NCBI RefSeq assembly: GCF_014191425.1
Contig: NZ_JACHWP010000012.1
Location: 1-39,018 of the forward strand
Length of the DNA: 39,018 bases
Origin: Helcobacillus massiliensis
GTDB lineage: Bacteria; Actinomycetota; Actinomycetes; Actinomycetales; Dermabacteraceae
Direction: 5' to 3'
Of this stretch, positions 1 to 27,147 are shown piece after piece; position 1 is the stretch's first letter; the number at the start of each line of letters is the position of its first letter. The notes beneath the pieces are model-generated. The model ran no database searches and had not been told where the DNA came from. It saw nothing but the letters and a program-made list of their open reading frames with translations. A program made the position numbers and the translations under genes.

Positions 1-1
1 T

Positions 2-1579
2 TTTTCGGGTGATCCCGTCGGCGCTCCCCGCGAGGATGCGGCTGCCCGTCGGCGCGATCTCGCCAACGATATGGCGCGCGCTGCCCGGTCCCGCCGTGCC
101 GCCTCCAAACGTTCCGCCACTGCAGGTGCGGCCGCGCCCGCGCCGGCTGCTGCGCCGGCTGCTGCGCCGACGTCAGCCCCCTCCGCCGCTCCGACTGCCG
201 CCCCTGCTGCGGCGAGGCCCGCTGCGGCACCGACCGCGGCTCAGCAGAAGGACGCTGACGCCTCCGGCACCAGCGTGGAGGAGAAGGTCCTCTCCCCGGC
301 TGGGGAGACCCGTGCTCCCGCAGCGCCGACCCCTGCACCGGAGCAGTCTCCGGCGGCCGTGACGGCAGCGACCCCGGACGCTGACCAGACTGACGCCCCG
401 GCTGCCGAGTCGGCAGAGCGCACGGATACCGAGAATGCGGCTCCTGCGCCGGCGGCGTCGTCGAAGTCCGCGACCGAGGGCTTCGGGTACGACGATGTGG
501 TGATGGTCGGTGAGGACGAGCGCCGGTTCGATCCCGACGCGGCTGGGCCCGCTGCGGCAGCCGAATCCGAGGCTGACGATGCTCCTGGGGCAGATGCCTC
601 CGCTGAGGCGCCGTCAGCGGCCTCTGAGACGGCTCAGGACCGCTCCGATGAGCACGAGGATCCCTCCGTCGCTGCGGCCGCGTCCGGGGCTGAGGACGAG
701 TCCTCCAGCGCCTCGGAGCTGTCGATCGACACAGACGATCTCGTCGCTGTTCCCGGTGCCGAGTTCGCGGAGCTTCCCATCAATGAGATCCGCGAGAACC
801 CGCGGAACCCGCGCACCGTCTTCGATGAGGAAGCGCTCGATGAGCTGGCGTACTCCCTGCGCGAAGTCGGCGTCCTGCAGCCGGTTGTGGTTCGACCAAT
901 TCCGGTCACGGAGAGCGGCGAATCGTTTGAGCTCGTCATGGGTGAGCGCCGTTGGCGCGCCGCGCAGCGCGGTGGGCTGACCTCGATCCCGGCGATCATT
1001 CGTGAAACCAGCGACGATGACCTCCTGCGCGATGCTCTGCTGGAGAACCTGCACCGCAGCCAGCTGAACCCCCTGGAAGAGGCCGCCGCGTACGCGCAGC
1101 TCCTGGAGGACTTCGGTTCCACGCAGGACGAACTGGCGGAGCGCATCGGCCGCTCCCGTCCCCAGATCACCAACACGCTGCGTCTGCTGAAGCTGGCGCC
1201 GCTTGTGCAGCGCCGTGTGGCCTCCGGGGCCCTCTCTGCGGGCCATGCGCGCGCTCTCCTGGCCGTGGACGATCCGAAGCTCCAGGAGGAGCTGGCGGCC
1301 CGTGTGGTGGCCGAGGGGCTGTCAGTCCGCGCTGTTGAGCGCCTGATCTCCACAGGCAGCGGCCCGACGGGGCGTGCATCCACTCCCCGCCGCACCACCT
1401 ACAATCCGCACGTGGTGGACCTGACCTCCCGCATCAGCAACCGCTTCGAAGCTCCGGTCCGGATCGATGTGGGCAAGCGCAAGGGCAAGATCACCTTTGA
1501 GTTCTCCTCGATGGAGGATCTCGATCGCCTGGCGTCTCTCCTCGGGATCGACGCCGATGACCTGCCCGGCGAGGGCTGA
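2..1579 (+). CDS. parB: Chromosome partitioning protein ParB (5' end outside window)
   Basis: ParB is a CTPase clamp that loads at parS sites and spreads along DNA to drive origin segregation with ParA. The frame is open to the window edge. The first ATG (71) lacks the usual N-terminal GLGRGLGAL motif, so the true start probably lies upstream. Counting from that ATG, residues 1 to about 225 are Ala/Pro-rich then acidic low complexity. The ParB/Srx CTP-binding domain follows from about 227, with PRNPR, GERRWRAA and ENLHRSQLNPLEEA. A helix-turn-helix (ELAERIGRSRPQITNTLRLL) and a C-terminal dimerisation segment (KGKITFEFSSMEDLDRL) come next. The long low-complexity insert is unusual for ParB. 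A hairpin terminator and the parS array lie immediately downstream. Identity is certain; the N-terminus is not. Confidence 0.95.
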   Translation, partial: FSGDPVGAPREDAAARRRDLANDMARAARSRRAASKRSATAGAAAPAPAAAPAAAPTSAPSAAPTAAPAAARPAAAPTAAQQKDADASGTSVEEKVLSPAGETRAPAAPTPAPEQSPAAVTAATPDADQTDAPAAESAERTDTENAAPAPAASSKSATEGFGYDDVVMVGEDERRFDPDAAGPAAAAESEADDAPGADASAEAPSAASETAQDRSDEHEDPSVAAAASGAEDESSSASELSIDTDDLVAVPGAEFAELPINEIRENPRNPRTVFDEEALDELAYSLREVGVLQPVVVRPIPVTESGESFELVMGERRWRAAQRGGLTSIPAIIRETSDDDLLRDALLENLHRSQLNPLEEAAAYAQLLEDFGSTQDELAERIGRSRPQITNTLRLLKLAPLVQRRVASGALSAGHARALLAVDDPKLQEELAARVVAEGLSVRAVERLISTGSGPTGRASTPRRTTYNPHVVDLTSRISNRFEAPVRIDVGKRKGKITFEFSSMEDLDRLASLLGIDADDLPGEG

Positions 1580-1611
1580 GCGTCACGGCCTGGTTCTGAT
1601 TACCATCCGGT

Positions 1612-1644
1612 AAGGGAGGGTGCCGACGAGTGCCCTCCCTTTTC
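1612..1644 (+). terminator. Rho-independent terminator after parB
   Basis: A perfect 9-bp stem (AAGGGAGGG at 1612-1620 with CCCTCCCTT at 1633-1641) is followed by a short T run, 33 bases after the parB stop. Confidence 0.8.
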
Positions 1645-1725
1645 TCTGCCCATCTCGTCCGTCCGGGTCGAGCGCGGGTGAGCTGTCTGTGCTGCGCAGT
1701 GTTCGGTTGTGCTGTGGCGCGTTGA

Positions 1726-1750
1726 GCTGTGCTGTGCTGTGCTGTGCTGG
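1726..1750 (+). repeat. GCTGT pentanucleotide microsatellite
   Basis: About five tandem GCTGT units lie in the parB-trx gap. More imperfect GCTG/TGTG copies spread over 1681-1770. No function is apparent. Confidence 0.7.
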
Positions 1751-1884
1751 CTGTGGCTGGGTTGCCGCGGGCTGCTCCGTGCTGACTGTCTCTTCCGTCC
1801 ACTGACTTGGGGCGAGATCCGTCAGGGTGCTCACCCGCGCTGATCTCACCTCTCGAGTGCTGTATCCACGTGTGTGCACTCTTC

Positions 1885-1986
1885 TGTGGATAACTCCGTG
1901 AAACGATCCCTGACCTGCGCGGATAGTGGCACTGGTCGGGCTCTGGTCAGGACTTGTCGCCCTCTCTCGGGCCGCCTTGTGGACAA
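1885..1986 (-). promoter_or_regulatory. DnaA-box-like sites, left flank of the parS array
   Basis: A perfect DnaA box on the minus strand (TTATCCACA, 1885-1893) and a TTGTCCACA box (1978-1986, the form preferred in streptomycetes) lie just before the first parS-like site. Box identity is read directly; DnaA binding is inferred. Confidence 0.6.
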
Positions 1987-2399
1987 GGACAGCGGCACTG
2001 ATCTGCCGCTAGGTTTCACGTGGAACCTCAGCCCCCGTCCCCACGCATCCTCAGCGGCAGCGCGCGTTGAGTACCAGCGTGACGTCTGGATGGAGCGGCG
2101 TGTTTGAGGGATCAGTTCAGGTGCCGGGACCATTGAGTCCGACCCGGCAGATAGGTCGTTTCACGTAGAACTGCTGAGTAATGGACCACGCCCAGGGTGC
2201 GCCTATTCGCTTCGCTGTCGGTCCGAGGGTGTGGTGACTTGTCCCAGGAGTCGAGTTTCACGTGGAACCGGTCCGATAAGTGCTGATCAGCGCGTTGTTG
2301 GAGGTGTTCCACGTAAAACACTTCGATAGACATGACGTCATGGTTTGCTCCAGTCGGGTCTGGACACCCACTTGTGCGAAAGATAGCTAGCCTCCTCAG

Positions 2400-2413
2400 G
2401 TTTCACGTGAAAC
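2400..2413. promoter_or_regulatory. parS: Exact parS site
   Basis: GTTTCACGTGAAAC is a perfect palindrome identical to the conserved parS core, and an A follows it as in the 16-bp consensus. Confidence 0.9.
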
Positions 2414-3331
2414 AGACCCTTTCCACTAGAACCTTCGCGCACGTAGACACGACAGAGCGATGGGGTACACCCTCCTGACGCTGCACGACTGTGGAGTTCA
2501 GCTGACTGCCACCCTCTTGAGTTGTCGTATCTGACTGTGGTTGTACGTGAAACGGCGACGGTGTGGATGCGCAACGCGGGAGGAGTTCGCATGCAGACAA
2601 TGCCGCGAAGTGGTTCCACGTGAAACACGCTTGTTCAACCTCAGTCAGGACGCAACATCGTGCCGGCCAACCGGCATGCACCCTTGACCCTCTTCGTTTG
2701 CTGTGCGGCTAGGAAAACTGTGCCCTGCGGGCATGTCCGTTGATTGACACATTGCGTACTCGGCCGAGGTGGCGGTGGACGTGTAGTTGTGCTCACTCGG
2801 TTCCACGTGAAACCAACGCTCTCGGCAACAGAAGCGCAGGCAATCATTCGGAGTGGTATTTCGACCTTGGCAGAGCCGCTGCCCCGAGTCACTGTGTTCG
2901 GTCAATCGAAAGTTGTGCTCTTCGGTGGCAATGAGTTCTCAATGTGGGGAGATGCTGCGGTGCTGTGTCTGCGACAGTGTGTTCCACGTGAAACCACTGA
3001 GACGGAACGACAGGGAGGGAGCTACGGCCATGGCGACTCTCCACTGGCTCAAGTTGCGGTCGTGCGAGGTTTCACGTGAATCCTCGACGACGTGCCACAT
3101 TCGGCGGCGTAGGGTGCGAAGGCTCTCCGGCGTGCTTCCTTCCGGTGCAGGCAGTTCCACGTGAAACAGCCTGCGGCACGAGATAGCAAGTGTCGGAGCT
3201 CCGGAATGAACGTGCCGCGCGCCCTCGCCGGCGATGGCGACACGTTTCGCGTGGAACGGACCGGTGTGCCTCGGCCTGTTAGAGGCTCTTGTGCGCACCT
3301 GACAGTTGCCGGCGCGATCAATGGGGCGCTT

Positions 3332-3345
3332 GTTTCACGTGAAAC
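3332..3345. promoter_or_regulatory. parS: Exact parS site
   Basis: This is the second exact GTTTCACGTGAAAC palindrome. It is preceded by T, as in the 16-bp consensus. Confidence 0.9.
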
Positions 3346-3850
3346 GCGACTGACGTGTTTGTAGAAAGCCAAGGCTGGACCAGTGTCCCTACGGCGAGGT
3401 GCCGATTGTGATGACGTCTCTGTCTCATCGAAAAGAGTCGGAGGCTGCTATCGGAATCGAGAGGGTGGCTTCCCAACCATGCTGGGACGGCATGTTTCAC
3501 GTGCAACCAATGAACGGCAATACCCAAAGCCATCCGTTTCACGGGAAACGTTCTGAAAGAGCATCCGGCTGAGGGCGCGGCGTCGTCAGAACCGCCAAGC
3601 TCTGTTGGCCCCAAGCCACACTTTTGCCCGCGACTTGGTGGCGACAGCGACCAGTGGGCCGGGCCCGAGGCCCCTGCGGCGTGTGCACGCTGCTGCTGGC
3701 CACGCGGCCCATGCGTTTCACGCGGAACTCCGCGTTGAGAAAGCGGCAGGGCGCGCATTCCTCTTTGTAGGGGGACGGGTCGGCATCTGGCCCCCAGCCT
3801 CTCCTCTGGAAGGGTTGCGATTGAGGTGAGCCAAGGCCCGGGGCTGACTG

Positions 3851-4100
3851 TTATCCACGAGTGTGCAATCAATTGTGGAAGAACGTGGTCCGGTCGAGTT
3901 ATCCACAGTGATGGTGACAACGTCAGTGATCGCTAAGCGGGGTTCCACGTGGAACCGGTATGGCACATAGGCGGTAAAATCGCAGGTCAGAGGTGATTTT
4001 CGGCTCTTTGAGAAGCGCTCACCGTGCGAGCGCACGCGACGAGGGCCGGAGCGCACGGCCTGGGATCTGCACAGACTTGTATCCACAAGGTTGTGGATAA
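3851..4100 (+). promoter_or_regulatory. DnaA-box-like cluster, right flank of the parS array
   Basis: Four boxes are visible: TTATCCACG (3851-3859), perfect TTATCCACA (3899-3907), GTATCCACA (4079-4087) and perfect TTATCCACA on the minus strand (4092-4100). The last two face each other as an inverted repeat, ATCCACAA-GG-TTGTGGAT (4081-4098). With the left pair this gives six boxes within about 2.2 kb. They could be part of an origin, a DnaA-titrating locus or a regulatory site. dnaA itself is not in the window. Confidence 0.6.
3942..3955. promoter_or_regulatory. parS: Variant palindromic parS site
   Basis: GTTCCACGTGGAAC is a perfect palindrome carrying the symmetric T-to-C / A-to-G change that many other sites in the array carry on one side only. 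It is the last site on the right. Confidence 0.75.
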
Positions 4101-4213
4101 CCTAGTGGATGGCTGGGGACAAGTGAGCTTGACCCAACAAGGCGCGGGGCCAGTAGCTGCGGTCCGGCACGCCTGGCGCCCAGCTGGCGACCCAGGCGGA
4201 CGGGATGAACGGA

Positions 4214-4756
4214 TTACGGATGCAGCAGTCGCTCGATAGCGTCGACGACCTCGTACTTCGGCCGGGCTCCCCGGAGAAGTGTGATTGGCGAATCGGCAAG
4301 TGCGCCAGGGCCGTCACCGCCATCATTATGCCCCTCTCCGCCCGGAGCTGAGTGCGCCGCTGCCGCGTGTAGGCCGGCCTCGGGAATGAGGAGCCATGTT
4401 GGGAGGCGACGCTCAGTTGCGGTATCGCCAATCAGAGCTGCCGTGTCGTCTTCGACCGCTTCCAGAAGCTGCGCGGGACGGCTTCTGGAGAACACTGGCA
4501 ACTGCTTCAGGTCATCAGAAGTTGGGAAACCGTCGGACACATCCACGGTCGCTGTCGTGACACGCGGCCCCATGACTTGGCCGATCTCCTCCGCCGCCAG
4601 CACTGCCGGCAGGGAGGGAATGCTCCACCGCGCCCAGAACACCACGGCCGACACGTGGGCACCGGCCGCCGGCGCAACAGGAGCAGCCGCAGCAGGAACG
4701 CCAGCGGCAGGGGAAGCCTCCACTGGGCCTTCCCCGCCGCTGCCCGCTGCATGCAC
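4214..4756 (-). CDS. Thioredoxin-like protein lacking both active-site cysteines
   Basis: A 180-residue protein with a GTG start 23 bp after the trxB stop, in the place where trxA/trxC normally follows trxB in actinobacteria. After an Ala-rich leader (1-33), VVFWARWSIPSLPAV matches the thioredoxin strand and helix, but the CGPC redox motif is SIPS (residues 45-48), so neither catalytic cysteine is present. The cis-proline segment (RRLPTWLLIPEAG) and the C-terminal helix (GARPKYEVVDAIERLL) are retained, with a Gly/Ala/Asp-rich insertion between them. It cannot be a normal thiol-disulphide oxidoreductase. It may be a structural or binding protein, or a gene in decay. The fold assignment is by motif alignment. 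Confidence 0.8.
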   Translation of the reverse strand: MHAAGSGGEGPVEASPAAGVPAAAAPVAPAAGAHVSAVVFWARWSIPSLPAVLAAEEIGQVMGPRVTTATVDVSDGFPTSDDLKQLPVFSRSRPAQLLEAVEDDTAALIGDTATERRLPTWLLIPEAGLHAAAAHSAPGGEGHNDGGDGPGALADSPITLLRGARPKYEVVDAIERLLHP

Positions 4757-4779
4757 ACCGCCGGAGCGGTCCGAACTGC

Positions 4780-5832
4780 TCAGACGTCGTCCTTCGCCAG
4801 CAGGTAGCGCTCAGCATCCAGAGCCGCCGAGCAGCCGGAGCCGGCCGCGGTGATCGCCTGACGGTACGTGTGGTCCACAACGTCGCCGCACGCGAACACA
4901 CCCTCGAGGTTCGTCAGCGTGGACCGCCCCTGAACGGCGATGTACCCGGCCTCATCGAGCTCCAGCTGGTCCTTCACCAGGTCAGTGCGCGGCAGGTGCC
5001 CAATGGCCTGGAAGAACCCGTCGGCCTCCACCTGGGAGGTCTTCCCGGTGACCGTGTCGCGGATCGTGAGGCCCGTGAGCGCGTTCTCGCCGTGCAGCTC
5101 CGTCACTTCGGTGTTCCACATGATGGTGAGCTTCGGGTCGTTCTCGGCGCGGCGCACCATTGCCTTGGAGGCGCGCAGCTCGTCGCGGCGGTGCATCAGG
5201 GTGACGTCACCGAAGCGGGTGAGGAACGTTGCCTCCTCCACCGCGCTGTCGCCGCCGCCGACCACCACGAGCTTCTTGTCCTTGAAGAAGAAGCCGTCGC
5301 AGGTGGCGCACCAGGAGACGCCCTTGCCCGTCAGTTCGTCCTCGCGTGCGAGGCCGAGCTTGCGGTACGCGGATCCCGTCGCGATGATGACCGCGCGTGC
5401 ACGATGCACCTCGCCGGACTCCGTCTCGATCTCCTTGATCTCGCCGTCCAGCTGCAGACGCACCGCATCCTCGTACACGAGCTCCGCGCCGAAGCGCTCC
5501 GCCTGCTCCTGCATGTTCGTCATCAGCTCCGGGCCCATGATGCCCTCGGGGAAGCCGGGGAAGTTCTCCACGTCCGTGGTGGTCATGAGGGCGCCGCCCG
5601 CGTCGAGGGAGCCGGCGATCACCAGGGGCTTCAGCTCGGCGCGGGCCGCGTACACGGCGGCGGTGTAGCCGGCCGGGCCGGACCCCACGATCACAACCTC
5701 CCGCACCGGCGAATCGGCCTGCGGCTCCGCACCGGCCTCGGGCGCGGCCTGCGGGGCGGCATCGGAGTCGCCGACTCCGATGCCGAAGCCGGAGATGGAG
5801 CTGAGGATCGACGGGTTGGTCTCAGTGTTCAC
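4780..5832 (-). CDS. trxB: Thioredoxin reductase (NADPH)
   Basis: A flavoprotein that passes electrons from NADPH to thioredoxin in the cytoplasm. The 350-residue product has an N-terminal extension of about 43 residues before the FAD-binding GSGPAG. The redox-active CATCDG follows near residue 175, then the NADPH-binding [10 protein letters not shown], then the C-terminal FAD contact (FACGDV, then [12 protein letters not shown]). The start is GTG with AAAGGA five bases upstream. All catalytic elements are intact. Its usual partner gene downstream encodes a cysteine-less thioredoxin-like protein, so the real substrate must be encoded elsewhere. Confidence 0.96.
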
Positions 5833-5971
5833 GAGGGTCCTTTCTTCGCAGAGGCGCTGCGGTCAGAGAACGGGTCAGCGGCCGGGACGGGCCGACGGGG
5901 TCGGGTGGCGGACAGTGGAGGCGGGGCGGTCGGGGCCGGGGAACCGGTCGGCGGGCCGACGGAGCCGGGAT

Positions 5972-6586
5972 CTAGGACGTGGGCACGAGCTTCACGGCTC
6001 CGTTCCACAGGCGGGAACTGCTCGCCCCCTTCGATTCGGGGGTTCCACAGGAAGAACGCACAACCGTCGCGTTCACTTCCCCGCCCTCGGTGTGGATCAC
6101 GTCAGCGGTGGTCGCGGAGTGCACCAGCAGCCAGGCCGGCCCTGAATCCATCCACGACACCTCCTCGATCATGAGGATCTGGTCGTCCACGCCCTGCTCC
6201 TGCATGCAGGCGGTGACGTCGAACGAAGCGGGGTTCTGCAGAGTTCCGGTGTCCACGAGGCGCTGCACCTCCTTACCGATGGAGTTCTCCGTCAGCACCG
6301 GCAGGCCGGACGCGTCCACTCCCCGTTCCGACTGCGACCCCGCCGGCACCGCCGCCGAGGTCGAGGTCTGGCTGGACACGCTCAGGCCCCAGGACAGCAT
6401 CACGCCGAGCAGGATCGCGGCCGCGATCAGCAGCAGCATGATCGACGGCGGCATCCCGATCGCCTCCTTCAGCGGAGTCCTCAGGATCCGGGCGCGGCGT
6501 CCACGGCCCCGCCCGCTCCCCGGCTCTCCCGCGCGGCGCGGGGTCACGCGCCGCCGGGACCCGGGCTGGTCGCTGCGCTTCGCCAC
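5972..6586 (-). CDS. Small single-pass membrane protein of unknown function
   Basis: A 204-residue protein not recognised as a known family. It has a very basic N-terminus (Arg/Gly-rich, 1-45), one transmembrane helix (about 47-70, IMLLLIAAAILLGVMLSWGL) and an extracytoplasmic domain with two cysteines (ACMQEQ and SSCGTPE) that could pair. The GTG start lies four bases after the pseudokinase stop, and the end of that gene supplies GAGGTGA as a ribosome-binding site, so the two are probably translationally coupled. Its place between the murJ/pseudokinase pair and trxB is where mycobacteria carry sigM and its anti-sigma gene, but no sigma factor is present and no anti-sigma signature is visible. 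Confidence 0.75.
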   Translation of the reverse strand: MAKRSDQPGSRRRVTPRRAGEPGSGRGRGRRARILRTPLKEAIGMPPSIMLLLIAAAILLGVMLSWGLSVSSQTSTSAAVPAGSQSERGVDASGLPVLTENSIGKEVQRLVDTGTLQNPASFDVTACMQEQGVDDQILMIEEVSWMDSGPAWLLVHSATTADVIHTEGGEVNATVVRSSCGTPESKGASSSRLWNGAVKLVPTS

Positions 6587-6590
6587 CGAG

Positions 6591-9107
6591 TCACTTCACC
6601 TCGACTTCGGCGACGTCCACACGGAAGCGGCCGTTCGGCAGGGCGCCCGGCTTCGGCGACCACAGCATCAGCCGCTCAGCCTCCACGGGCTCCTCCGGCT
6701 TCAGCGACATCTCACCCGGGTTCAGATCCGTGGAGGCGAGGACGTCACCGGGGGTGCCGTCGGGGTTCACGGTGCGCAGCTCCAAGGTGCCGCCCTGCGC
6801 CTCACCACCGTGCACGATCACCTCGGTGACCTCGCCCTTCTTCTCGAAGTTCAGCAGCACACCCATGCCGTTGCGGAGGTTCCCGAAGTCCTCGCTGGCG
6901 TACTCCTTGGTCTTCCACACGGTGCCCATGTCGCCGTCCTTGATGCGGCCCGCGTTCTCCGGGTAGTCCGCCTTCGAGGGGTCCTCCGGGTACACGATCT
7001 CGGCATTCTTCAGCGCCGCCGGCTCGACCTTCGGCTCCTCCGACTTCGCCGGCTCCGGGGACTTCTCCGCCGGAGCCTCCGACTCCGCGGTCGCGGTCGG
7101 CTCCACAGTCTTCGCGGGCTCACTGGAGACCCCGCGGTCGCGGTTCACCGAGGTGACCGTGTTGATCGCCAGGAACCCGGCGAGCGCCACCAGCACGATC
7201 ATCAGAATGATCAGGATGCGGGACTGATAGCTGCGGCCGTCACCACGAGCATCACCGGTGCTGAGCGAGTCCGGGTCATCCGATGCGAAGGCCACCCCAA
7301 CCACGTCGCGCAGCAGCGACGGGGAATCGCGCTCGCCGGTGTCCTCGGTGGGCGGCTCCGTCATGGACCGCTGGCGCCCCGGCACCGGGATCGCGGGCGC
7401 GCCGGCACCGCGAGGGGTGTCGTTCGCGCTGGTCAGCGCTGCGGCGGCCGACGGGTGCACCGGCTCCACCGGTGCGGATCGCCCGGACCGCTTCGACGGA
7501 TTGACAGGCTCGGGCGCGCCCGTCGGCTTCGACGGGTCGACCGGCGCAGGGGCCTCCGACGCCGTCGGCACGGACCCCACGCCCGTCGGATCGTGGGGGG
7601 TGCGCCCACCCGTACTCGCGGAACCGGCAGCGCCGAGAGCGGCGGCACCCGCGGCACCCGCAGCGGCGCTGGACGAACTGGACATCGCGATCCCGCCGGT
7701 GGTGGTCGCCGGCTCCCCGCTCAGCGACTCGGTGCGGCCCGCCACCCGCAGCGGACCGGTCGCGGCGGCGCTCTCCGCCTCAGCGCGGGTCTGCTGCCTG
7801 TCGGTGCGGGAGGAGAACTCGGGGGCGGGGCCGATCGCGTCGCCCCACGCCTGCGTGGCCGGCGCGCCCGAATCGGCAGCGCCAGCAGCGGCGGCGCCGC
7901 CCGTGGCAGTGCCAGCGGCGGCAGCGCCCGCGGTCGAGGCGCCAGCAGTGCCGGCGCCGGGGGCGGTGTCGTCGGCGGAGCCGTCAGCGAGGACGGAGGG
8001 GCTCGTCGGGGCGTCGTCGCCCACGGGCCCCGCTGCGAAAGCGCTGCCGGCGGCCGTGGAACCGGACGCGGCCGCAGGATCCGTCGGCTCCGAGGCGGAC
8101 TCGGAGGCCGGCTGGTCGGAGACGGTCCCGGCGGCGGGCGCCTGGTCAGCGGGAGCATCATCAGCGGGCGCGTCCTTGACCGGCGGCTCCTCGCCGCGCA
8201 TCACGGCCAGCTGCGCCGCCGACAGCGGCTGCGGCGCCCCCACTCGCTGCTCCGGATCGAACGCCTCCAGCGTCACCGGCAGCGACTGCCACGGCCGCAG
8301 ATCATTGTGCACATCCTGCGGCTCGTACACCGGGTCGCCCACCTGCGGAGCCACATACGTCAGCGCCATCACCGTGATGTCCCGCAGGTCATCCGGCACC
8401 GTCCGCGCCGACGCCAGCTGCGGATCCACCACATCGGACCCGCCGAAGAACTCACTGTCCCGGCCCGTCAGGCCCACGAACAGGATCCGGCCCAGGGACC
8501 GCGCATCCGGGTCCACCGTTCCCGGCTCGCCCTCACCGCTGCCGCGGCCGGCGCCCGAGGTCAGGCCCACGATGTCCAGGTCGCTCAGCGCCGCGGACTC
8601 CACGCCCGCACCCAGGATCAGCACCCGGTCAGCGTCCGCATCCACGAACACACGGTCCTCATCCAGCAGGCGATGCGTCACACCCTTGCGGCGCGCCGCC
8701 TCCAGCGCCACCGACGCCTGCCCGGCGATCGACCGCACCGTCTCCGGGCGCAGCGCACGCTCACGCGCCATGTCCGACAGCGACGGCGCATCGACCCGCT
8801 CGTACACGACAGCCGCCACGGCAGTGCCGTCGTCGTCGGTCAGCTCATGAACAGCGGCGATCGGCACCAGCGACTGGTGCACCACCAGCTGAGAGCGCCG
8901 CGCCGCATCCGCCACATCCGCGGCGATCTCCCCGCGCGCGAGGAAGACGAGGACGCTGCCGCCCTCCTTCTCACCCACATGCCAGGTGGCGCCGTCCACA
9001 GGGTGCGCGGGCAGCGTCCGGTCCGCGGGGGCCTCGCCCTCGCCGTCGAACCCGGGCAGGATCGCGTACTCCTTGAGGAATGCGTCCACCGTGGAATGCT
9101 CGGCCAT
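6591..9107 (-). CDS. Membrane pseudokinase linked to MurJ (mycobacterial MviN C-terminal half equivalent)
   Basis: An 838-residue protein. Residues 1 to about 300 form a degenerate protein-kinase-like domain; the catalytic-loop region reads THRLLDEDRVFV with no HRD motif, so activity is unlikely. A long Ala/Pro/Ser/Gly-rich linker follows to about 630. One transmembrane helix (about 632-655, IILMIVLVALAGFLAI) and an extracytoplasmic beta-rich domain (DGDMGTVWKTKEY to the end) resembling the discoidin-like end of mycobacterial MviN complete it. In Mycobacterium these parts are fused to MurJ; here they are a separate gene downstream of murJ. The FhaA-recruiting role is known for the mycobacterial protein and inferred here. 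The ATG at 9107 is preferred over a TTG seven codons upstream because AGAGGTG precedes it. Confidence 0.82.
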   Translation of the reverse strand: MAEHSTVDAFLKEYAILPGFDGEGEAPADRTLPAHPVDGATWHVGEKEGGSVLVFLARGEIAADVADAARRSQLVVHQSLVPIAAVHELTDDDGTAVAAVVYERVDAPSLSDMARERALRPETVRSIAGQASVALEAARRKGVTHRLLDEDRVFVDADADRVLILGAGVESAALSDLDIVGLTSGAGRGSGEGEPGTVDPDARSLGRILFVGLTGRDSEFFGGSDVVDPQLASARTVPDDLRDITVMALTYVAPQVGDPVYEPQDVHNDLRPWQSLPVTLEAFDPEQRVGAPQPLSAAQLAVMRGEEPPVKDAPADDAPADQAPAAGTVSDQPASESASEPTDPAAASGSTAAGSAFAAGPVGDDAPTSPSVLADGSADDTAPGAGTAGASTAGAAAAGTATGGAAAAGAADSGAPATQAWGDAIGPAPEFSSRTDRQQTRAEAESAAATGPLRVAGRTESLSGEPATTTGGIAMSSSSSAAAGAAGAAALGAAGSASTGGRTPHDPTGVGSVPTASEAPAPVDPSKPTGAPEPVNPSKRSGRSAPVEPVHPSAAAALTSANDTPRGAGAPAIPVPGRQRSMTEPPTEDTGERDSPSLLRDVVGVAFASDDPDSLSTGDARGDGRSYQSRILIILMIVLVALAGFLAINTVTSVNRDRGVSSEPAKTVEPTATAESEAPAEKSPEPAKSEEPKVEPAALKNAEIVYPEDPSKADYPENAGRIKDGDMGTVWKTKEYASEDFGNLRNGMGVLLNFEKKGEVTEVIVHGGEAQGGTLELRTVNPDGTPGDVLASTDLNPGEMSLKPEEPVEAERLMLWSPKPGALPNGRFRVDVAEVEVK

Positions 9108-15130: not shown

Positions 15131-15247
15131 GGAGGAATGGGGACGGTCTGTGCAGATGCGGTGTGAACTGAATCGGGTGCAGGTGTTCACCACCAGGGAA
15201 TGGACCTAGGCTCTGATCACTCCCATCAATCGGAAGGAATCGACCGC

Positions 15248-17809
15248 GTGAGCGACAAATCGTCAGGCAAGGATCCTCACCGCCCCAGCCGGGCGGCCAG
15301 CGGATCGCGCCGCACCGTGCGCACCCCCGGTTCGGAGTCGTCGGGTCGCCGCAGCGCCGGAGCCGGCGCCGCAGCCGCCTCCACCAGGCGCACCCCTGCC
15401 GGTGGTCGGCGCCGTCGCGCCGCCGGGACGGCCGCGGCCGGTTCCGCCGCTGCCCGCCCCAAGGGCAACCTGATCGGCTGGCCCCGCGCCGGCAAGAAGG
15501 GCCTGTGGCGCTGGATCCCGTCGTTCCGTCTGCTGGCCCTCGTCGGTGCCCTGCTGATCCTCGCCGGTGTCGGCGTCGGCGTGTGGTTCTACAACGACAC
15601 CGACGTGCCGGAGCCGACGGACGTCGCAGTCGCCCAGACCTCCCGCGTCTACTTCTCCGACGGCACCACCCTGATGGGTGAGTTCAGCGAAATCGACCGC
15701 ACGATCCTGCCCTCGGACGAGATCCCGCAGAACGTGAAGGACGCCGTGGTGGCGTCCGAGGACTCGTCGTTCTACGAGAACCGCGGCGTGTCCCCGAAGG
15801 GCATTGTGCGCGCCTTCGTCAACAACGTGTCCGGCGGCGCCCAGCAGGGCGGCTCCACCATCACCCAGCAGTACGTGGAGCGCTACCACACCGGCACCCA
15901 GACCGGATACCTGGGCAAGGCCCGTGAGGCCGTGATGGCGCTGAAGATCGACCAGGAGCTCTCCAAGGACGAGATCCTGTCCCGCTACCTCAACACCATC
16001 TACTTCGGCCGCGGCGCGTACGGCATCGAAGCGGCCGCGCAGGCGTACTTCAACAAGCCGGCGAAGGACCTCAGCGACTCCGAGGCCGCGATGCTCGTGG
16101 GCCTGATCCCCGCGCCGTCGTCCTGGGATCCCGCGGTGAACGAGAAGATGGCGCAGCAGCGCTGGGCTCGCGTGATCTCCCGCCAGGTGAACGACACGAA
16201 GACGCTGACCGAGAAGGAAGCGGACGCGATGGAGTTCCCCGAGGTGAAGAAGCCGAAGAAGGAGAACCGCTTCGGCGGCACCAACGGCTACCTCCTCGCG
16301 GAGGTGAAGAAGGAGCTCGAGGCGAAGGGCCTGACCCCGGAGGAGCTCGACACCGGCGGCTACCACATCGTCTCCACGATCGACAAGAAGAAGCAGCAGT
16401 ACGCCGTTGACGCCGTCAACAGCCTGCCGGAGGACCGCCCCGAGCGGAACCATGTCGGCACGGTCACGATCGACCCGAACAACGGTGAGATCGTCTCCAT
16501 GTACGGCGGCAAGGACTACATCACCCAGGGCCGCAACGACGCCACCCAGTCGCGCATGCAGGCCGGCTCGATCTTCAAGACCTTCACCCTGGTCGCAGCC
16601 CTCGAGGACGGCTACGGCCTCCGCTCCCGGTGGGACGGCGACTCGCCGAAGGACATCCGCGGCTGGAAGGTGAAGAACTTCGGCAACACCTCCTACGGCC
16701 GCGTGGACCTGAAGAAGGCCACCACCAACTCGATCAACACCGCCTACGGGCAGCTGAACTTCGAGATGGGGCCGGAGCGCACGAAGGAGACCGCGATCAA
16801 GCTCGGCCTGCCGGAGAAGACCCCGGGCCTGGACGGCGACGTCACCAACGTGCTCGGCACCGCGTCCCCGACGGTGCGGGAGATGGGCGAGGCGTACGCG
16901 ACCATCGCCTCCGGCGGCATCTACCGCCCCTCGCACATCGTGCGCGAGGTGAAGAACCCCGACGGTTCCGTGCGGTATAAGCCGAAGGACGAAGCCAAGC
17001 GTGTGCTGGACGAGGGCGTGGCCACCAACGCCATCGAGGCACTGACCGGCCCGCCCTCGCAGCAGGGGTCGGCTCGCCGTGTCGCCCAGAACATGGACGG
17101 CCGCCCCGTGGCCGGCAAGACCGGCACCTCCGAGAAGTTCCACTCCGCATGGTTCGTGGGCTTCACCCCGCAGCTCGTGACGAGCGTGGGCATGTTCCAG
17201 CCCACCGAGGACGGCAAGGGCTCGGAGTCCCTCACTCCGTTCGGTGAGTTCGATCAGATCACCGGCGCCACGTTCCCCTCCCTGCTCTGGGTGGACATCA
17301 TGAAGCCGTCCCTGGAGGGCGAGCCGTTCATGGAGTTCCCGCCGCCGGGTGACCTGCCGCAGAAGCAGCGGTCCAAGACGGACCAGAAGGCTGTGAACGA
17401 GCAGCGCCAGAAGGAGCGTCAGCAGCGCCAGGAGCAGGAGAAGGCGCGCCAGGAGGAGCAGCGCCAGCAGAAGGAGGAGCAGGACAAGAAGACCGAGGAG
17501 GAGCGCAAGAAGCGCGAAGAGGAGAAGAAGCAGGAAGAGGAGAAGAAGAAGCAGGAAGAGGAGAAGAAGAAGCAGGAGGAAGAGAAGAAGAAGCAGGAAG
17601 AGGAGAAGAAGAAGCAGGAAGAGGAGAAGAAGAAGCAGGAAGAGGAGAAGAAGAAGCAGGAGGAGGAGCGCAAGAAGCGCGAGGAGGAGGAGAAGAAGAC
17701 TCCCGCCCCCACCACCCCTGCTCCAGCACCGGATCCTGCTGATCCTCCGGCGACGCAGCCGACTGCGGACAGCCCGGCCGCTGATGCGCCCGGCACTGCC
17801 CCGCGCTGA
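15248..17809 (+). CDS. Class A penicillin-binding protein (bifunctional PBP1) with coiled-coil tail
   Basis: Polymerises glycan strands and cross-links peptides. The 853-residue product has a basic N-terminus, one membrane anchor (about 94-115), a GT51 glycosyltransferase domain (SEDSSFYENRG, then GGSTITQQYVERY) and a transpeptidase domain with SxxK in AGSIFKTF (about 441), SIN in TTNSINTAY (about 493) and KTG in AGKTGTSE (about 623). The unusual part is the C-terminus: about 105 residues of Gln/Arg/Glu/Lys with KKKQEEE repeats (predicted coiled coil), then a Pro/Ala-rich end. GTG 15248 with GGAAGG ten bases upstream is chosen over ATG 15200, which has no good ribosome site. In actinobacteria such a PBP commonly sits just before rpsF. 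Confidence 0.92.
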   Translation: MSDKSSGKDPHRPSRAASGSRRTVRTPGSESSGRRSAGAGAAAASTRRTPAGGRRRRAAGTAAAGSAAARPKGNLIGWPRAGKKGLWRWIPSFRLLALVGALLILAGVGVGVWFYNDTDVPEPTDVAVAQTSRVYFSDGTTLMGEFSEIDRTILPSDEIPQNVKDAVVASEDSSFYENRGVSPKGIVRAFVNNVSGGAQQGGSTITQQYVERYHTGTQTGYLGKAREAVMALKIDQELSKDEILSRYLNTIYFGRGAYGIEAAAQAYFNKPAKDLSDSEAAMLVGLIPAPSSWDPAVNEKMAQQRWARVISRQVNDTKTLTEKEADAMEFPEVKKPKKENRFGGTNGYLLAEVKKELEAKGLTPEELDTGGYHIVSTIDKKKQQYAVDAVNSLPEDRPERNHVGTVTIDPNNGEIVSMYGGKDYITQGRNDATQSRMQAGSIFKTFTLVAALEDGYGLRSRWDGDSPKDIRGWKVKNFGNTSYGRVDLKKATTNSINTAYGQLNFEMGPERTKETAIKLGLPEKTPGLDGDVTNVLGTASPTVREMGEAYATIASGGIYRPSHIVREVKNPDGSVRYKPKDEAKRVLDEGVATNAIEALTGPPSQQGSARRVAQNMDGRPVAGKTGTSEKFHSAWFVGFTPQLVTSVGMFQPTEDGKGSESLTPFGEFDQITGATFPSLLWVDIMKPSLEGEPFMEFPPPGDLPQKQRSKTDQKAVNEQRQKERQQRQEQEKARQEEQRQQKEEQDKKTEEERKKREEEKKQEEEKKKQEEEKKKQEEEKKKQEEEKKKQEEEKKKQEEEKKKQEEERKKREEEEKKTPAPTTPAPAPDPADPPATQPTADSPAADAPGTAPR
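17515..17675 (+). repeat. In-frame Lys/Glu/Gln codon repeat in the PBP tail
   Basis: About seven near-identical 21-bp units (AAGAAGCAGGAAGAGGAG plus AAG) encode KKKQEEE. The purine-only plus strand explains a long Leu-rich antisense open frame. Unit number is likely to vary between strains. Confidence 0.85.
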
Positions 17810-22351: not shown

Positions 22352-23311
22352 ATGACCCCGATCCGTTCCCGCAGCCCGTTCTCGTCCGCCCGGCGCCTCA
22401 GCGGCATCACGGCTGGTGCCGGCATCGCCGCGCTGCTGCTCACCAGCTGCGGCGGTGTCACCCCTGATGGGGAGGGGGCCGACGCGTCCTCCACGTCCAC
22501 TGACTCCTCCACGTCCGCAGGGCAGGACTCCTCGTCCGATGGCGGGGCCCCGACGGCCGGTGCGGATGGGACTGCAGCCTCCGACGGCGGCACGTCCGAC
22601 GGCGGTGCGTCCGATGGTGGAGCCTCCGGCGGCACATCTGACGCCGGCGGCGCCCATGGCGAGGTGAAGGGCGCTCCCGCGGTGACGCTGGCGCAGCCCG
22701 GCCCCACCGGTTTCTTCACCATCGCCGCTGACGACGGCGCGGACACTCTGAGCCCGGAGGAGCTGTCCTCCGGCATCGAATCGTCCCTGCCGGACAGCAG
22801 TGGCGCTGAGTGTGACGGCCCGTTGGATCTGACGGACCCGTCGGCCTCCGTGACCTGCCGGGAGAAGGGCGCCCCCGAGGGGAAGGGCGTCCTGACGGTG
22901 ACGCCGATGGTGACTGCCCGCGCTGATGGTGACGAGACCGGGGGCGCGCTGGTGACAACGGGGACGCCGCTGCAGAGCGAACTCGCACAGCTCGTGGCGG
23001 ATCGGCAGGATTCGAACCAGCTGACGGTGGTGTCCTTCGGCCAGGGCGGCATGTTCGGCGTGGACCAGGAGGTGCCGAAGGCGGACGTGGAGCAGATCGC
23101 GATGAGTGCCCTGGGGAAGGTGGGTCTGGAGAAGGACCTGACGGCGGTGGACTGTGAGGGGCCGCTGTCGCAGTCGCAGAGCGCCACGGCGTGCACGTTC
23201 ACCACGAAGCACGGCGACACGTGGCAGGGCTACGCTTTCCTGGGCATGACGCCGTCGCAGGACATGGGGCTCACGGTGCTGATCCCCACGGAGGCGTTCC
23301 CCGCCGAGTGA
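22352..23311 (+). CDS. Lipoprotein with two DUF4333-like repeats
   Basis: A 319-residue surface lipoprotein. The signal peptide ends in the lipobox LLTSC (acylated Cys). A Ser/Gly/Asp/Thr-rich linker follows to about residue 105, then two similar halves. Each has a helix and a Cys pair in the pattern CxGPL...S...C: AECDGPLDLTDPSASVTC, and VDCEGPLSQSQSATAC. This resembles the DUF4333 module of actinobacterial lipoproteins, apparently duplicated; that is my alignment by eye. The ATG follows GAGAGGAG. A TACTGT -10 candidate lies at 22302-22307. Ligand unknown. Confidence 0.8.
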   Translation: MTPIRSRSPFSSARRLSGITAGAGIAALLLTSCGGVTPDGEGADASSTSTDSSTSAGQDSSSDGGAPTAGADGTAASDGGTSDGGASDGGASGGTSDAGGAHGEVKGAPAVTLAQPGPTGFFTIAADDGADTLSPEELSSGIESSLPDSSGAECDGPLDLTDPSASVTCREKGAPEGKGVLTVTPMVTARADGDETGGALVTTGTPLQSELAQLVADRQDSNQLTVVSFGQGGMFGVDQEVPKADVEQIAMSALGKVGLEKDLTAVDCEGPLSQSQSATACTFTTKHGDTWQGYAFLGMTPSQDMGLTVLIPTEAFPAE

Positions 23312-23447
23312 TCGCGCCGCCGCCCGCGGCTGTCGGCCTCCGGGCTGCGGGCCGCGAGCGGGCTGCGGGCCGACGGGTGCTGCCCGCTCGGTGAACGGTC
23401 AGAACAATGGCATACGACACATGTGCGGCCTGCGGGTGGCGCCCGAG

Positions 23448-23476
23448 TGGACCAGTCCCGGGCCGCACCCTATAGT
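23448..23476 (+). promoter_or_regulatory. Promoter of the tRNA-Leu gene
   Basis: A -35-like TGGACC (23448-23453) and -10 TATAGT (23471-23476) are 17 bp apart, about 50 bases before the tRNA. This is the best sigma-70-type promoter in the region. Confidence 0.65.
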
Positions 23477-23525
23477 TGAACATGCTTCGGCGTTGGTCGT
23501 GCTTGACACCCGGCTCCGAAGAGAC

Positions 23526-23609
23526 GCGCAAGTGGCGGAATTGGTAGACGCGCACGGTTCAGGTCCGTGTGCCTTCGCGGGCGTGGGGGTTCAAGTCCCC
23601 CCTTGCGCA
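23526..23609 (+). tRNA. tRNA-Leu (anticodon CAG)
   Basis: The acceptor stem GCGCAAG/CTTGCGC, D-arm GGCGGAATTGGTAGACGC, anticodon loop TTCAGGT (CAG at 23560-23562), long variable arm typical of tRNA-Leu, and T-arm GGGGGTTCAAGTCCCCC are all present. The discriminator is A73, and CCA is not encoded. Confidence 0.96.
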
Positions 23610-23615
23610 CAGATG

Positions 23616-23652
23616 AGGCCCCGGCCCGATCAGCAGATCGGGCCGGGGCCTT
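23616..23652. terminator. Bidirectional terminator between tRNA-Leu and the lipoprotein cluster
   Basis: A 16-bp stem, AGGCCCCGGCCCGATC with its complement, and a four-base loop. It follows the tRNA on plus and lies after the first lipoprotein gene on minus. A diverged copy occurs at about 25166-25200. Confidence 0.85.
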
Positions 23653-23700
23653 CCGCATGTCCGGCAGTGGGAACTGGCCGGTCAGCCGTCTGCGCTGGGA

Positions 23701-24351
23701 TCAGCCCATTGCCTTCATCATGTACTCCATCACCTTGGGCTCCTTCTGGCCGCAGGTCACGAGGGCGGTCATCATCTGCTCCTCGTTGCCGGGCTTGCTC
23801 GGCAGGTCCTCGCCCTTGGAGATCGCCACCTTCGACTCATCGGACAGGTGCGGGTAGATCTCTTCGCTGAAGCAGGTGAAGAACCGGTCGAACTGCTCGT
23901 CGGTGATGCCGGCTTCCTTCATCTCGTCGAGCGAACCGTCCTCAGCAGAATTCGCCCGCACCTGCTTCACGGTCAAGGCGATGAACTCCTCCTTCGACGG
24001 CACGTCCTTCGGATCCACCGTCTTCGCGGACGCATCATCCTTGTCATCGTCAGCGTCATCGTCATCGTCGGCGTCATCGGTGGGGGCGCCGGGGCTGGTC
24101 GACGCCTTCGTGTCAGTGGGGCCGCCATCGGAGGCGTCGGTGTCATCGCTCGGGTCCGCTGACTCGTCGGAGTTCGCGTCGTCGGTCTTCTCGCTGGGCT
24201 TCTCCGGCGGCGCGGTGGTCGCCGGCGACGATGCGGGCTCCGTGGTGCTTTCACCCTCGGTGCTGGAGCTGCCGCAGGCGGCGAGGCTGATGGTGAGCAC
24301 GGCGGCGGCGCCGACGGATGCCAGACGGGCGGTGATCCTTCGAGTGCGCAT
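23701..24351 (-). CDS. Lipoprotein, two-cysteine family, copy A
   Basis: A 216-residue surface lipoprotein. Signal peptide with lipobox SLAAC (Cys26), then an Asp/Ser/Thr/Pro-rich acidic linker (about 27-115) with a poly-Asp run. A helical C-terminal domain begins VPSKEEFIALTVKQ and contains AGITDEQFDRFFTCF and MMTALVTCG; the two Cys could form a disulphide. The same domain recurs in the genes at 24465, 25270, 26273, 27148 and 27543. The nearest relative is the 25270 gene, with almost the same signal peptide and TDEQFDRFFTCFS motif. Ribosome site GAGGAGGG. Not assigned to a known family; function unknown. Confidence 0.85.
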   Translation of the reverse strand: MRTRRITARLASVGAAAVLTISLAACGSSSTEGESTTEPASSPATTAPPEKPSEKTDDANSDESADPSDDTDASDGGPTDTKASTSPGAPTDDADDDDDADDDKDDASAKTVDPKDVPSKEEFIALTVKQVRANSAEDGSLDEMKEAGITDEQFDRFFTCFSEEIYPHLSDESKVAISKGEDLPSKPGNEEQMMTALVTCGQKEPKVMEYMMKAMG

Positions 24352-24464
24352 GGCACCCTCCTCGTGGTTGATGCCGGGCCCGGTGCCCGGCGCATGGTTC
24401 CAGCGTAGAGAGGATGCGGCGTCCCGTCAGCGGGTCGCCGGGTGGAGGAGTGCCCATCGCGCCG

Positions 24465-25061
24465 TCATTGCGTCACCAGGTCGATGGCGCAGGCGTCGAT
24501 CGCGTTCTCCACGAGGGTGTTGTCCTCCTCGGAGATGGTGGCGTACTTCTCACTCTCCTTGTTGGAGATGATCTGGAGGGTCTCGTCGGAGACGTCGTCG
24601 TAGGTCTTGTCGGCAACGCAGCGCCACGTGTCGTCCATGTCCTTCTGCGTCAGGCCGTTCTTCTTCAGCTCCTCCTGCGAGGGCGTGAACGTCCGCATCG
24701 TCTCCACGAACCCGTCGGTGTACTCCTGCTTGCTGACGCGCCGCGCAGCGCCGCTGTTCGCCGACGCCGACTCGGACGGGGACGCGGCCGGGCTGGAGGG
24801 GGACGCGGCGGGGCTGGACGGGGAGTCCGACGGGGACGCGGAATCCGTCGGCTTCTGAGGGGAGGTCGACGCCGGCGCGGGCGACGCCGACGGCGACGGG
24901 TCCTCACCACCGGCGGTGAGGGAGCCGATGGCGCCGCAGCCGGTGAGGGAGGCGCACAGCAGCGCACCGGCGGTGAGGAACAGCGCGGAGGAGCGGGGGC
25001 GGAGGGGGAGAGTTATGGGGACATCCTGTCGGTGAGTGCCGCGGCGACAGTGCAGCAGCAT
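24465..25061 (-). CDS. Lipoprotein, two-cysteine family, copy B
   Basis: A 198-residue lipoprotein with lipobox ASLTGC near residue 40, a Ser/Pro-rich linker (SPSSPAASP units) and the shared domain (SKQEYTDGFVETMRT, GLTQKDMDDTWRC, NTLVENAIDACAIDLV). The start is uncertain: ATG 25061 gives a signal peptide of acceptable length but lacks a clear ribosome site; upstream in-frame codons fall in the 88-bp repeat. A truncated second copy of this gene lies at 26040-26170. It sits 113 bp upstream of copy A on the same strand. Function unknown. Confidence 0.75.
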   Translation of the reverse strand: MLLHCRRGTHRQDVPITLPLRPRSSALFLTAGALLCASLTGCGAIGSLTAGGEDPSPSASPAPASTSPQKPTDSASPSDSPSSPAASPSSPAASPSESASANSGAARRVSKQEYTDGFVETMRTFTPSQEELKKNGLTQKDMDDTWRCVADKTYDDVSDETLQIISNKESEKYATISEEDNTLVENAIDACAIDLVTQ

Positions 25062-25087
25062 GGGGAGGCCCGCACACACGGGTTGGA

Positions 25088-25175
25088 ATGACAGTACCCC
25101 GCCCGGGCAGTGCCGAGCGGGGTACGTGTCGCAACGGGGGGCGTCGGCGCCGGTCAGGTGACCGGGCCGATCAGC
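25088..25175. repeat. 88-bp direct repeat, copy 1
   Basis: Nearly identical to 26174-26260; they differ by one G in a G run and one C/T. It contains the hairpin TACCCCGC (25095-25102) / GCGGGGTA (25117-25124), which may terminate the upstream minus-strand lipoprotein gene. It marks the edge of a tandem duplication. Confidence 0.9.
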
Positions 25176-25269
25176 GGATCGGACCGGGGCCTTCCGCATG
25201 TGTGGGTGCGGGACCCGTTGGCGCGCGCTCGCCCTGCCCTTCACGAGGCCAGGCGCGGCAGGAGTCGGG

Positions 25270-25899
25270 TCATCCCTTCATCTCCTCCATCATGATCTTC
25301 AGCATCTCCGGGTCATCCTTCCCGCAGGTGACGAGGGCATTCATCATCACATCGTCCGAAGGCGGTTCGCCCGACGGGGTGTCACCGTTCATTATCGCGA
25401 CCTTCGCCTCGTCCGACAGGTGCGGGTAGATCTCGTCGCTGAAGCAGGTGAAGAACCGGTCGAACTGCTCGTCGGTAATGCCGGTGGCCTTCATCTCCCC
25501 GAGGGCGCCGTCCTCCTCGGCGGAGGTGCGCAGCTCCTTCACCAGGTATGCGGAGAACTCATCCTTGGATGGGACGTCCTTCGGGTCCACCGGGGTTGGG
25601 GTGGCCTTGTCAGTGCCGCCGCCCTCGTCGGTTCCGGTGGTGCCGTCGAGGTCGTCACCGCGCGGGGGCTTAGCGCCGGTGGCGCGCTTCCCGTCGGCCG
25701 ACGCGTCCTTGCGGTCGCCAGCGTCGGCTTCCTCAGCGGGGCTGGTCTCCTTCGGCGGGGAGGTGATGGTCGGCGTCGTCGTCGGCTCCTCCGTGCCCCG
25801 GCCTTCGGTGGTGGAGCCGCCGCAGGCGGCCAGGCTGATGGTGAGCACTGCCGCGGCGCCGACGGAGGCCAGACGTGCAGTGAGCGGTCGAGTACGCAT
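25270..25899 (-). CDS. Lipoprotein, two-cysteine family, copy C (duplicate of copy A)
   Basis: A 209-residue lipoprotein with lipobox SLAAC (Cys26) and a signal peptide differing from copy A at only two positions (MRTRPLTARLASVGAAAV). The linker is rich in Thr/Pro/Asp/Gly and has diverged almost completely from copy A. The C-terminal domain is highly conserved (VDPKDVPSKDEF, GITDEQFDRFFTCFSDEIY, MMNALVTCG). Ribosome site GAGGGG; a -10 TAGGCT lies upstream near 25951-25956. The strong contrast between conserved ends and divergent linker suggests the linker evolves freely or by recombination. Confidence 0.86.
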   Translation of the reverse strand: MRTRPLTARLASVGAAAVLTISLAACGGSTTEGRGTEEPTTTPTITSPPKETSPAEEADAGDRKDASADGKRATGAKPPRGDDLDGTTGTDEGGGTDKATPTPVDPKDVPSKDEFSAYLVKELRTSAEEDGALGEMKATGITDEQFDRFFTCFSDEIYPHLSDEAKVAIMNGDTPSGEPPSDDVMMNALVTCGKDDPEMLKIMMEEMKG

Positions 25900-26039
25900 C
25901 GCGTCCCCCTCTTCTCAGGTGCCGGGCCCACTGCCCGGCGTCTGTCCCCAGCCTAGAGACGACACAACGGGCAGTCACGCCGACAGCGGGTGCAGGAGTG
26001 CCCATGCGGCAGGCCCGTCAGGCTGGTGCCCGCCTGCGG

Positions 26040-26170
26040 TCAGGAGACCAGTTCGACGGCGCAGGCGTCGATCGCGTTCTCCACCAGGGTGTTGTCGGCG
26101 TCCGGGATGGTGGCGATCTTCTCGCCCTCTTCTGCGGCGATGATCGTCCGCGTCTCGACGGGGTCGGGGC
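26040..26170 (-). pseudogene. Truncated second copy of lipoprotein gene B
   Basis: About 43 codons remain, matching the end of the gene at 24465: TRTIIAAEEGEKIATI, then NTLVENAIDAC and VELVS before the stop. The signal peptide, lipobox and first cysteine are missing. Its upstream end joins the 88-bp repeat within a few bases, so an internal deletion of about 470 bp is the simplest explanation. Confidence 0.85.
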
Positions 26171-26173
26171 CAC

Positions 26174-26260
26174 ATGACAGTACCCCGCCCGGGCAGTGCC
26201 GAGCGGGGTACGTGTCGCAACGGGGGCGTCGGCGCCGGTCAGGTGACTGGGCCGATCAGC
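26174..26260. repeat. 88-bp direct repeat, copy 2 (87 bp)
   Basis: Second copy of the repeat at 25088-25175, including the hairpin (26181-26188 / 26203-26210). It lies after the stop of the 26273 lipoprotein gene and could serve as its terminator. Confidence 0.9.
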
Positions 26261-26272
26261 CGGGTGGGGAGA

Positions 26273-27114: not shown

Positions 27115-27147
27115 CGAGTTCGTGTCAGTGACCGTCGATGGCCCGGG

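Follow-up and report, generated by a model that had tools for sequence, protein, structure and literature searches.

Downstream of parB, in a 39,018-nucleotide stretch of Helcobacillus massiliensis DNA (the window), lies a dense array of parS-like sites that is unique in the assembly and conserved across the family. Its sites are held by selection, a cluster of DnaA boxes adjoins its end, and SMC-ScpAB is undetected in its lineage. In many bacteria ParB and parS have a dual role in ParA-driven partition and SMC loading; ParB clamps load at parS and ParA moves the ParB complex. From the sequence evidence given below, we consider it likely that this array is the lineage's only chromosomal centromere, a ParB platform of many weak sites that would serve ParA-driven partition, would probably be coupled to DnaA and would not load SMC. 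Each parS-like site would load ParB CTPase clamps, and the 17 sites, mostly sub-consensus and about 120 bp apart behind converging gene ends, would build one large ParB complex to be moved by ParA after replication. Having many moderate sites may make this complex large but fast-exchanging. DnaA would probably bind the centromere through a distal module and a few boxes on the parB side, timing or licensing segregation as reported for Caulobacter.

Dense parS clusters (PMC3899335) and bacteria with a single condensin (PMC7485682) are already in print (papers are cited here and below from excerpts of their texts). New are the SMC-less lineage, the DnaA module and the fact that Brachybacterium has almost no perfect sites; among the literature matches listed, no paper links Brachybacterium to parS or condensin. 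Nearly the whole family is without detected SMC-ScpAB, yet it retains ParABS with an extremely compact site array. It thus offers a natural system in which to separate ParB-parS partition from the SMC-loading job, to ask whether MksBEF can be the sole condensin beside ParABS, and to test for a direct link between DnaA and the centromere outside Caulobacter.

The parS-like array and its gene neighbourhood

Counting as parS-like any sequence with at most two mismatches to the 14-mer GTTTCACGTGAAAC, a motif scan finds 17 sites at positions 2013..3955 (no strand assigned), with a mean interval of 121 bp. They start at 2013, 2158, 2255, 2306, 2400, 2540, 2613, 2800, 2981, 3069, 3154, 3244, 3332, 3494, 3536, 3715 and 3942. 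Two are exact (2400..2413 and 3332..3345, likewise unstranded), nine have one mismatch and six have two. Matches to this parS motif far exceed chance, since a first-order Markov null (200 sequences for the same 2.6 kb) gives an expectation of 0.01. The 16-mer TGTTTCACGTGAAACA at up to three mismatches is found 12 times in the window, also against 0.01 expected. The first-pass annotation had described 17 recognisable copies, two of them exact, in one non-coding block, with one paired variant present six times, and both counts are reproduced here (GTTCCACGTGAAAC or its complement occurs six times). Intervals between the sites are more even than random (p 0.002).

According to the open reading frames, the array occupies a 2.63-kb non-coding block (1580..4213, unstranded), the spacers of which are little conserved among relatives. 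The block is bounded by parB on the plus strand and by a convergent minus-strand gene at 4214..4756; because parB and the trxB side converge, it sits behind two gene ends. The array had been placed directly after parB, which is right as to its downstream side, but the first site lies 434 bp past the parB stop. Repeats found among the spacers are short, and most of them include the parS-like sites themselves; two others consist of DnaA-box-like stretches (D6) and a short GCTGT-rich run (D7). A structured RNA in the block was considered and rejected, as there is no Rfam match in 1500-6000.

The scan of the whole genome proposed in the first-pass annotation, at up to two mismatches to the 14-mer, gives 27 matches in 2,616,799 bases on 28 contigs, 17 of them in the array and ten in a second contig, C25. 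The last 3137 bases of C25 copy the start of the window's contig with a single difference, at the first base, so the ten additional sites most likely reflect contig overlap. Beyond the array and this copy, no parS-like site was found in the 2.62-Mb assembly at that threshold.

The window carries the last 525 codons and the stop of parB (1..1579, plus strand; TIGR00180 at 1.5e-55, over its cut-off), and the complete gene of 689 codons is present in C25 (L016:8564-10633). Its top-scoring model is that of Noc (TIGR04285), at 206 bits and under the cut-off of 315, and a structural counterpart in the PDB is ParB 6t1f (3.7e-48). The protein has a long Ala/Pro-rich linker, an HTH and a GERRWRA motif, which we take to be the CTP-binding motif, and it keeps the parS-type contact residues R and G. 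Gene order in C25 is dnaN-dnaA-yidC-jag-gidB-parA-parB (names other than parB come from sequence and order). With parA adjoining parB near oriC, and a ParB with a CTP-binding motif and a parS-type HTH, gene order, families, structures and residues all identify a ParABS system. Altered, Noc-like ParB specificity as the reason for imperfect sites was rejected: R and G are of parS type in the 37 of 57 ParBs readable by pattern (13 of the 20 unread ones are from Brachybacterium). The ParB linker is very long in array-bearing genomes generally, with open frames of ~460-900 codons against ~355-620 in others. On the other side of the block, the bounding gene (180 codons, no NCBIfam match) may be thioredoxin-like judging by its position, and it is followed by the thioredoxin-disulfide reductase gene trxB at 4780..5832 (minus strand; TIGR01292, 1.1e-116).

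Conservation of the array and selection on its sites

We sampled 47 Dermabacteraceae genomes, the family in which NCBI places Brachybacterium and Dermabacter, and read all 43 that have a ParB match (the four without one were left out), nine of the array-bearing ones from loci matched by position. The window's genome is the only one of its genus in the sample. An array of 10-18 sites lies downstream of parB in 42 of the 43 genomes, none of which has sites upstream in the stretches read, and trxB stands opposite to parB in all 42 array-bearing loci. The remaining genome, the deep-branching Micrococcales bacterium 31B (G002), has 14 looser sites that extend from inside parB to 6.7 kb past it. Relatives that keep parB while lacking the array had been named as the observation that would count against a dense platform; within the family none was seen apart from this looser case, and the array together with its conservation supports the view of one putative dense ParB-site platform on the chromosome. 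In one genome, G046 (L197, 11.1-16.9 kb), two inverted IS21-like copies (IstA/IstB, by eye) sit inside the array, with 6 + 8 sites kept and the DnaA module intact.

Genomes of other actinobacterial families have fewer sites, and these often precede parB. Of 14 genomes from other families of the order, ten have sites (3-10) only upstream of the parB stop, three have them on both sides and one has none, counted over a stretch of up to 20 kb around parB. Among 53 scored loci (of 80), 22 Dermabacteraceae loci, which mostly repeat genomes of the other counts, have 10-18 downstream sites, and the 31 others, G002 (L157) included, have at most six per 2 kb. The densest exception outside the family is G036, where ten sites occupy 2.1 kb on the upstream side of parB. 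The general premise that chromosomal parS sites are usually few and widely scattered does not hold up: 13 of the 14 other-family genomes have 3-10 sites around parB, and Myxococcus xanthus, in the excerpts available, has 22 (24) near-consensus parS, with 22 packed into about 3 kb (3.05 kb) near parAB (PMC3899335, PMC3778016). The notion of a point-centromere-style loading platform is partly supported, as regards a dense chromosomal array with individually kept sites, without the rule of few, scattered sites elsewhere or a host-preferred form (see below).

The M. xanthus cluster resembles the window's in being dense, near-consensus and close to parAB, and M. xanthus ParB shifted a 3.12-kb cluster probe in vitro (PMC3899335, PMC3778016). 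It differs in lying ~4 kb upstream of parA, and the excerpts of these papers mention neither a DnaA module nor condensin loss. One might therefore read the Dermabacteraceae array as an ordinary cluster of this type, offering many ParB nucleation sites for partition and functionally unconnected with DnaA and with the condensin change. Support comes from the M. xanthus cluster itself, located upstream of parA and bound by ParB in vitro (PMC3899335), and from G036, which has matches to SMC and ScpAB; that dense clusters coexist with SMC in both cases also counts against our preferred reading. We nevertheless regard an ordinary cluster as rather unlikely, given that all 42 genomes carry a DnaA-box module where the array ends, with favoured steps of 12 and 22 bp, and the non-detection of SMC-ScpAB in 35 of 35.

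To compare sites with spacers, we took the sites of each pair as defined in its first genome, a cleaner test than alignments anchored on the sites, in which site identity runs high. In the closest pair, G021 and G058, array sites are 98.4% identical over 182 bases and spacers 74.2% over 1364 (2% spacer gaps), with 96.2% identity in the upstream region and 88.2% at fourfold sites. Because site identity exceeds identity both in spacers and at fourfold sites, the sites are held while the spacers drift, which upholds the suggestion that they are individually kept by selection. Between G011 (L081) and G021 (L085), spacers are barely above the similarity of shuffled sequences and the flanking genes are ~96% identical. 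Homogenisation of the flanks by recombination is one possibility behind this divergence. Replacement of the array by transfer is disfavoured, since nine of 11 matched intervals in this pair agree within 8 bases.

Interval patterns are not kept in more distant pairs. Of 24 genomes (G002 left out), 16 have sites spaced more evenly than random (p < 0.05, uncorrected, the genomes not being independent), which speaks for our preferred reading, and the other eight do not, which speaks against it. In the same 24 genomes the spectrum of site variants differs by genus.

Site strength was counted in 42 genomes (G002 left out), whose relatedness makes the counts non-independent. In 34 Brachybacterium genomes, only five of the 342 sites in which neither half has more than one mismatch are perfect, against 41 expected when halves are shuffled within genomes, and four of these five belong to one species, G016. 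Doubly weakened sites are also rarer than expected (108 vs 144). In the eight genomes of other genera, the window's included, perfect sites are about as frequent as expected (47 of 104 vs 50). These counts fit stabilising selection for moderate site strength in one genus, Brachybacterium. Departures from consensus in Brachybacterium are AT-to-GC in 517 of 619 cases and, with the variant spectrum differing by genus, the idea of a host-specific preferred form loses its footing. Avoidance of restriction at the CACGTG core is unsupported, because common variants retain the core. A directional orientation of half-sites was likewise set aside, as there is no clear bias in Brachybacterium (97 strong-right vs 81 strong-left in 33 genomes, G002 left out).

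DnaA boxes at the end of the array

DnaA boxes were scored as matches to TTATCCACA with at most one mismatch unless stated. At the distal end of the window's array, the motif scan places exact boxes at 3899..3907 (plus) and 4092..4100 (minus), boxes with one mismatch at 3851..3859 and 4079..4087 (both plus), and a weak box with two mismatches at 4114..4122 (minus), 22 bp from the preceding box, a spacing common in relatives. A GCAGGTCA motif lies among them at 3982..3989 (plus). The parB side has an exact box at 1885..1893 (minus) and a one-mismatch box at 1978.

Over 42 genomes (G002 left out), there are 154 boxes in 29.4 kb distal to the array. The arrays themselves (73.5 kb) contain 10, the parB side (23.2 kb) 27 and the upstream stretches (252 kb) 20. 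Box densities per kb are 5.24 in the distal region, 0.14 within the array and 1.16 for the parB side, with 0.08 over the 6 kb upstream and 0.07 beyond. Per 700 bp distal to the array, 3.67 boxes are found against a Markov mean of 0.055. At least two boxes follow the last parS in all 42 genomes; G046 alone scored below two, because its IS inserts moved the module to +7500-7712, and is measured here from its true last parS. Neighbouring boxes on the same strand favour steps of 12 bp (50 cases) and 22 bp (15), and in 25 of the 42 genomes the 800 bp distal to the array contain GCAGGTCA, in 17 cases 51-52 bp before a plus-strand box.

Boxes at a putative centromere recall Caulobacter, where the centromere is not known to be a dense array beside a separate block of boxes. 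DnaA acts at parS in that species (PMC6399470, recounting Mera 2014), and the likeness, in the excerpt available, lies in DnaA boxes at parS that act in addition to those of the origin. Caulobacter differs in its condensin, with SMC and ScpAB both matched in our profile search. ParB and DnaA are predicted to occupy the Dermabacteraceae array, and we infer a timing role for DnaA there. By binding the module, DnaA could link initiation with segregation, as PMC6399470 describes for Caulobacter.

The distal boxes might instead form a datA-like reservoir of DnaA or a second part of oriC, with the parS array a mere neighbour, an explanation partly compatible with our preferred one. Compared with the dnaA-dnaN gap, examined in 38 of the 42 genomes, the distal block has more boxes in 27 and equal numbers in five, and in the window's genome it holds three of the 12 distinct exact boxes. 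GCAGGTCA is shared by both places in many genomes, being present in 18 of the 38 gaps, although it is absent from the window genome's own gap. Low local GC points in both directions, with the 60-bp minimum lower in the distal block in 13 of 38 genomes and lower or equal in the gap in 25. The two genomes with a GC skew maximum also disagree: in G024 it lies at -6.6 kb, near dnaA, which speaks against an origin at the block, though in G003 it lies at +11.7 kb.

The company that DnaA clusters keep elsewhere suggests a link to parS and so weighs against a reservoir or origin part. In 42 loci without a dense array, counted from a point 3.5 kb ahead of the parB stop, 11 clusters of at least three boxes in 300 bp occur in ten genomes, and ten of these clusters have a parS within 300 bp. 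The other 32 loci are without a cluster. Such non-origin clusters adjoin parS in nine other genomes, but their independence is limited because five of the 11 are one Actinoplanes-type element. On balance we find the reservoir or second-origin reading doubtful and prefer a DnaA-coupled centromere. The Actinoplanes-type element (L139, L140, L142, L144, L155) is strongly conserved and lies ~4.8-7.3 kb past parB; DnaA boxes are interspersed with its two perfect parS, which are 78 bp apart. A widespread element made of an exact parS and an exact DnaA box was also considered and rejected, as it is found in only three of 394 genomes of the class and in none of the Dermabacteraceae.

Condensins in array-bearing genomes

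We surveyed condensins in 58 genomes (35 array-bearing, 22 of other families, and G002) with profiles for SMC (TIGR02168, E up to 1e-20), ScpA (PF02616) and ScpB (PF04079). Each of the three was undetected in all 35 array-bearing genomes, ten of which are single-contig, and each was found in the same 23 of 23 remaining genomes. Four of these 23 SMC matches (G031, G035, G036 and G038) are under the model cut-off, partial or split at contig ends. The window's genome has three weak matches to the SMC profile, none over the cut-off (best E 7e-7, 74 residues), which count to some degree against an SMC-less reading. One of them is beside dnaN, which we take to be the usual position of recF. Over the class, ScpB was undetected in five of 394 genomes, two of them Dermabacteraceae. 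Another actinomycete, G317 (2.3 Mb, nine contigs), also has no detectable ScpB and may have lost the SMC complex independently.

The lineage thus appears, from these profile searches, to have lost SMC-ScpAB. A platform for loading SMC, such as ParB-parS is known to provide in both Bacillus and Corynebacterium (PMC8357415, PMC7083940, in excerpt), is disfavoured for the array because SMC-ScpAB is undetected; we dropped this explanation once profile searches of the window's genome found no SMC over the cut-off, no ScpA and no ScpB, and now hold it to be extremely improbable. In Corynebacterium glutamicum, a close counterpart in being an actinobacterial ParABS with a single oriC-proximal cluster of mostly intergenic sites, parS1-10 load SMC-ScpAB and are spread over 35 kb, nine of the ten being intergenic (PMC7083940). 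In Bacillus, clustering of strong parS has been proposed to avoid collisions of Smc (PMC8357415), a reason that would not apply in an SMC-less lineage. We infer that compaction of the array is linked to SMC loss, but this loss is confined to a single clade and therefore represents one event, which weakens our preferred reading.

The remaining candidate condensin is MksBEF. The MksF family (PF11855) is present in all 35 array-bearing genomes, in G002 and in seven of the 22 other-family genomes. In the window's genome mksF, mksE and mksB match JetA, JetB and JetC, the families shared with MksBEFG of Wadjet (JetABCD). The resemblance to Wadjet plasmid defence stops there: no JetD nuclease was found beside mksB (JetC) in ten Dermabacteraceae mksB loci, nor at G032, with one chance-level match (E 0.33) at G024, whereas JetD follows mksB in G002, G029, G034 and G448. 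MksF is also not patchy but present in each of the array-bearing genomes, and MksB is 67-79% identical across genera, a range covering nine of the ten other array-bearing genomes compared with the window's (G021 has only mksF in the stretch examined), against 26-30% outside the clade. Where more than one is seen, mksF, mksE and mksB keep their order and are separated by up to ~20 kb of inserted genes (L237-L244, L250-L268).

The array could then load this condensin, with ParB-parS recruiting MksB instead of SMC, which would be compatible with a DnaA-coupled partition centromere. We know of no contact between ParB and MksB. The universal presence of MksF in the SMC-less genomes and the conserved, JetD-free MksB argue for such loading. 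Against it, MksF is also found in SMC-bearing G002 and other families, and Corynebacterium MksB was without specific chromosomal loading sites by ChIP-seq, MksBEFG of C. glutamicum acting on plasmids and not on the chromosome (PMC7083940, in excerpt). We judge MksBEF loading unlikely. As a broader and rather speculative scenario, the common ancestor of Brachybacterium and Dermabacter might have lost SMC-ScpAB, leaving nuclease-free MksBEF as the sole condensin, with looser SMC-loading parS replaced by a dense, deliberately imperfect array plus a DnaA switch that would now load or guide MksBEF.

Elsewhere in the window, small genes predicted to be lipoprotein-like form a run at 22352-28352, mostly on the minus strand and several of them mutually similar (by eye). 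The protein encoded at 15200-17809, judged by eye to be a penicillin-binding protein, has a charged repeat tail rich in E, K and Q at 17200-17800.
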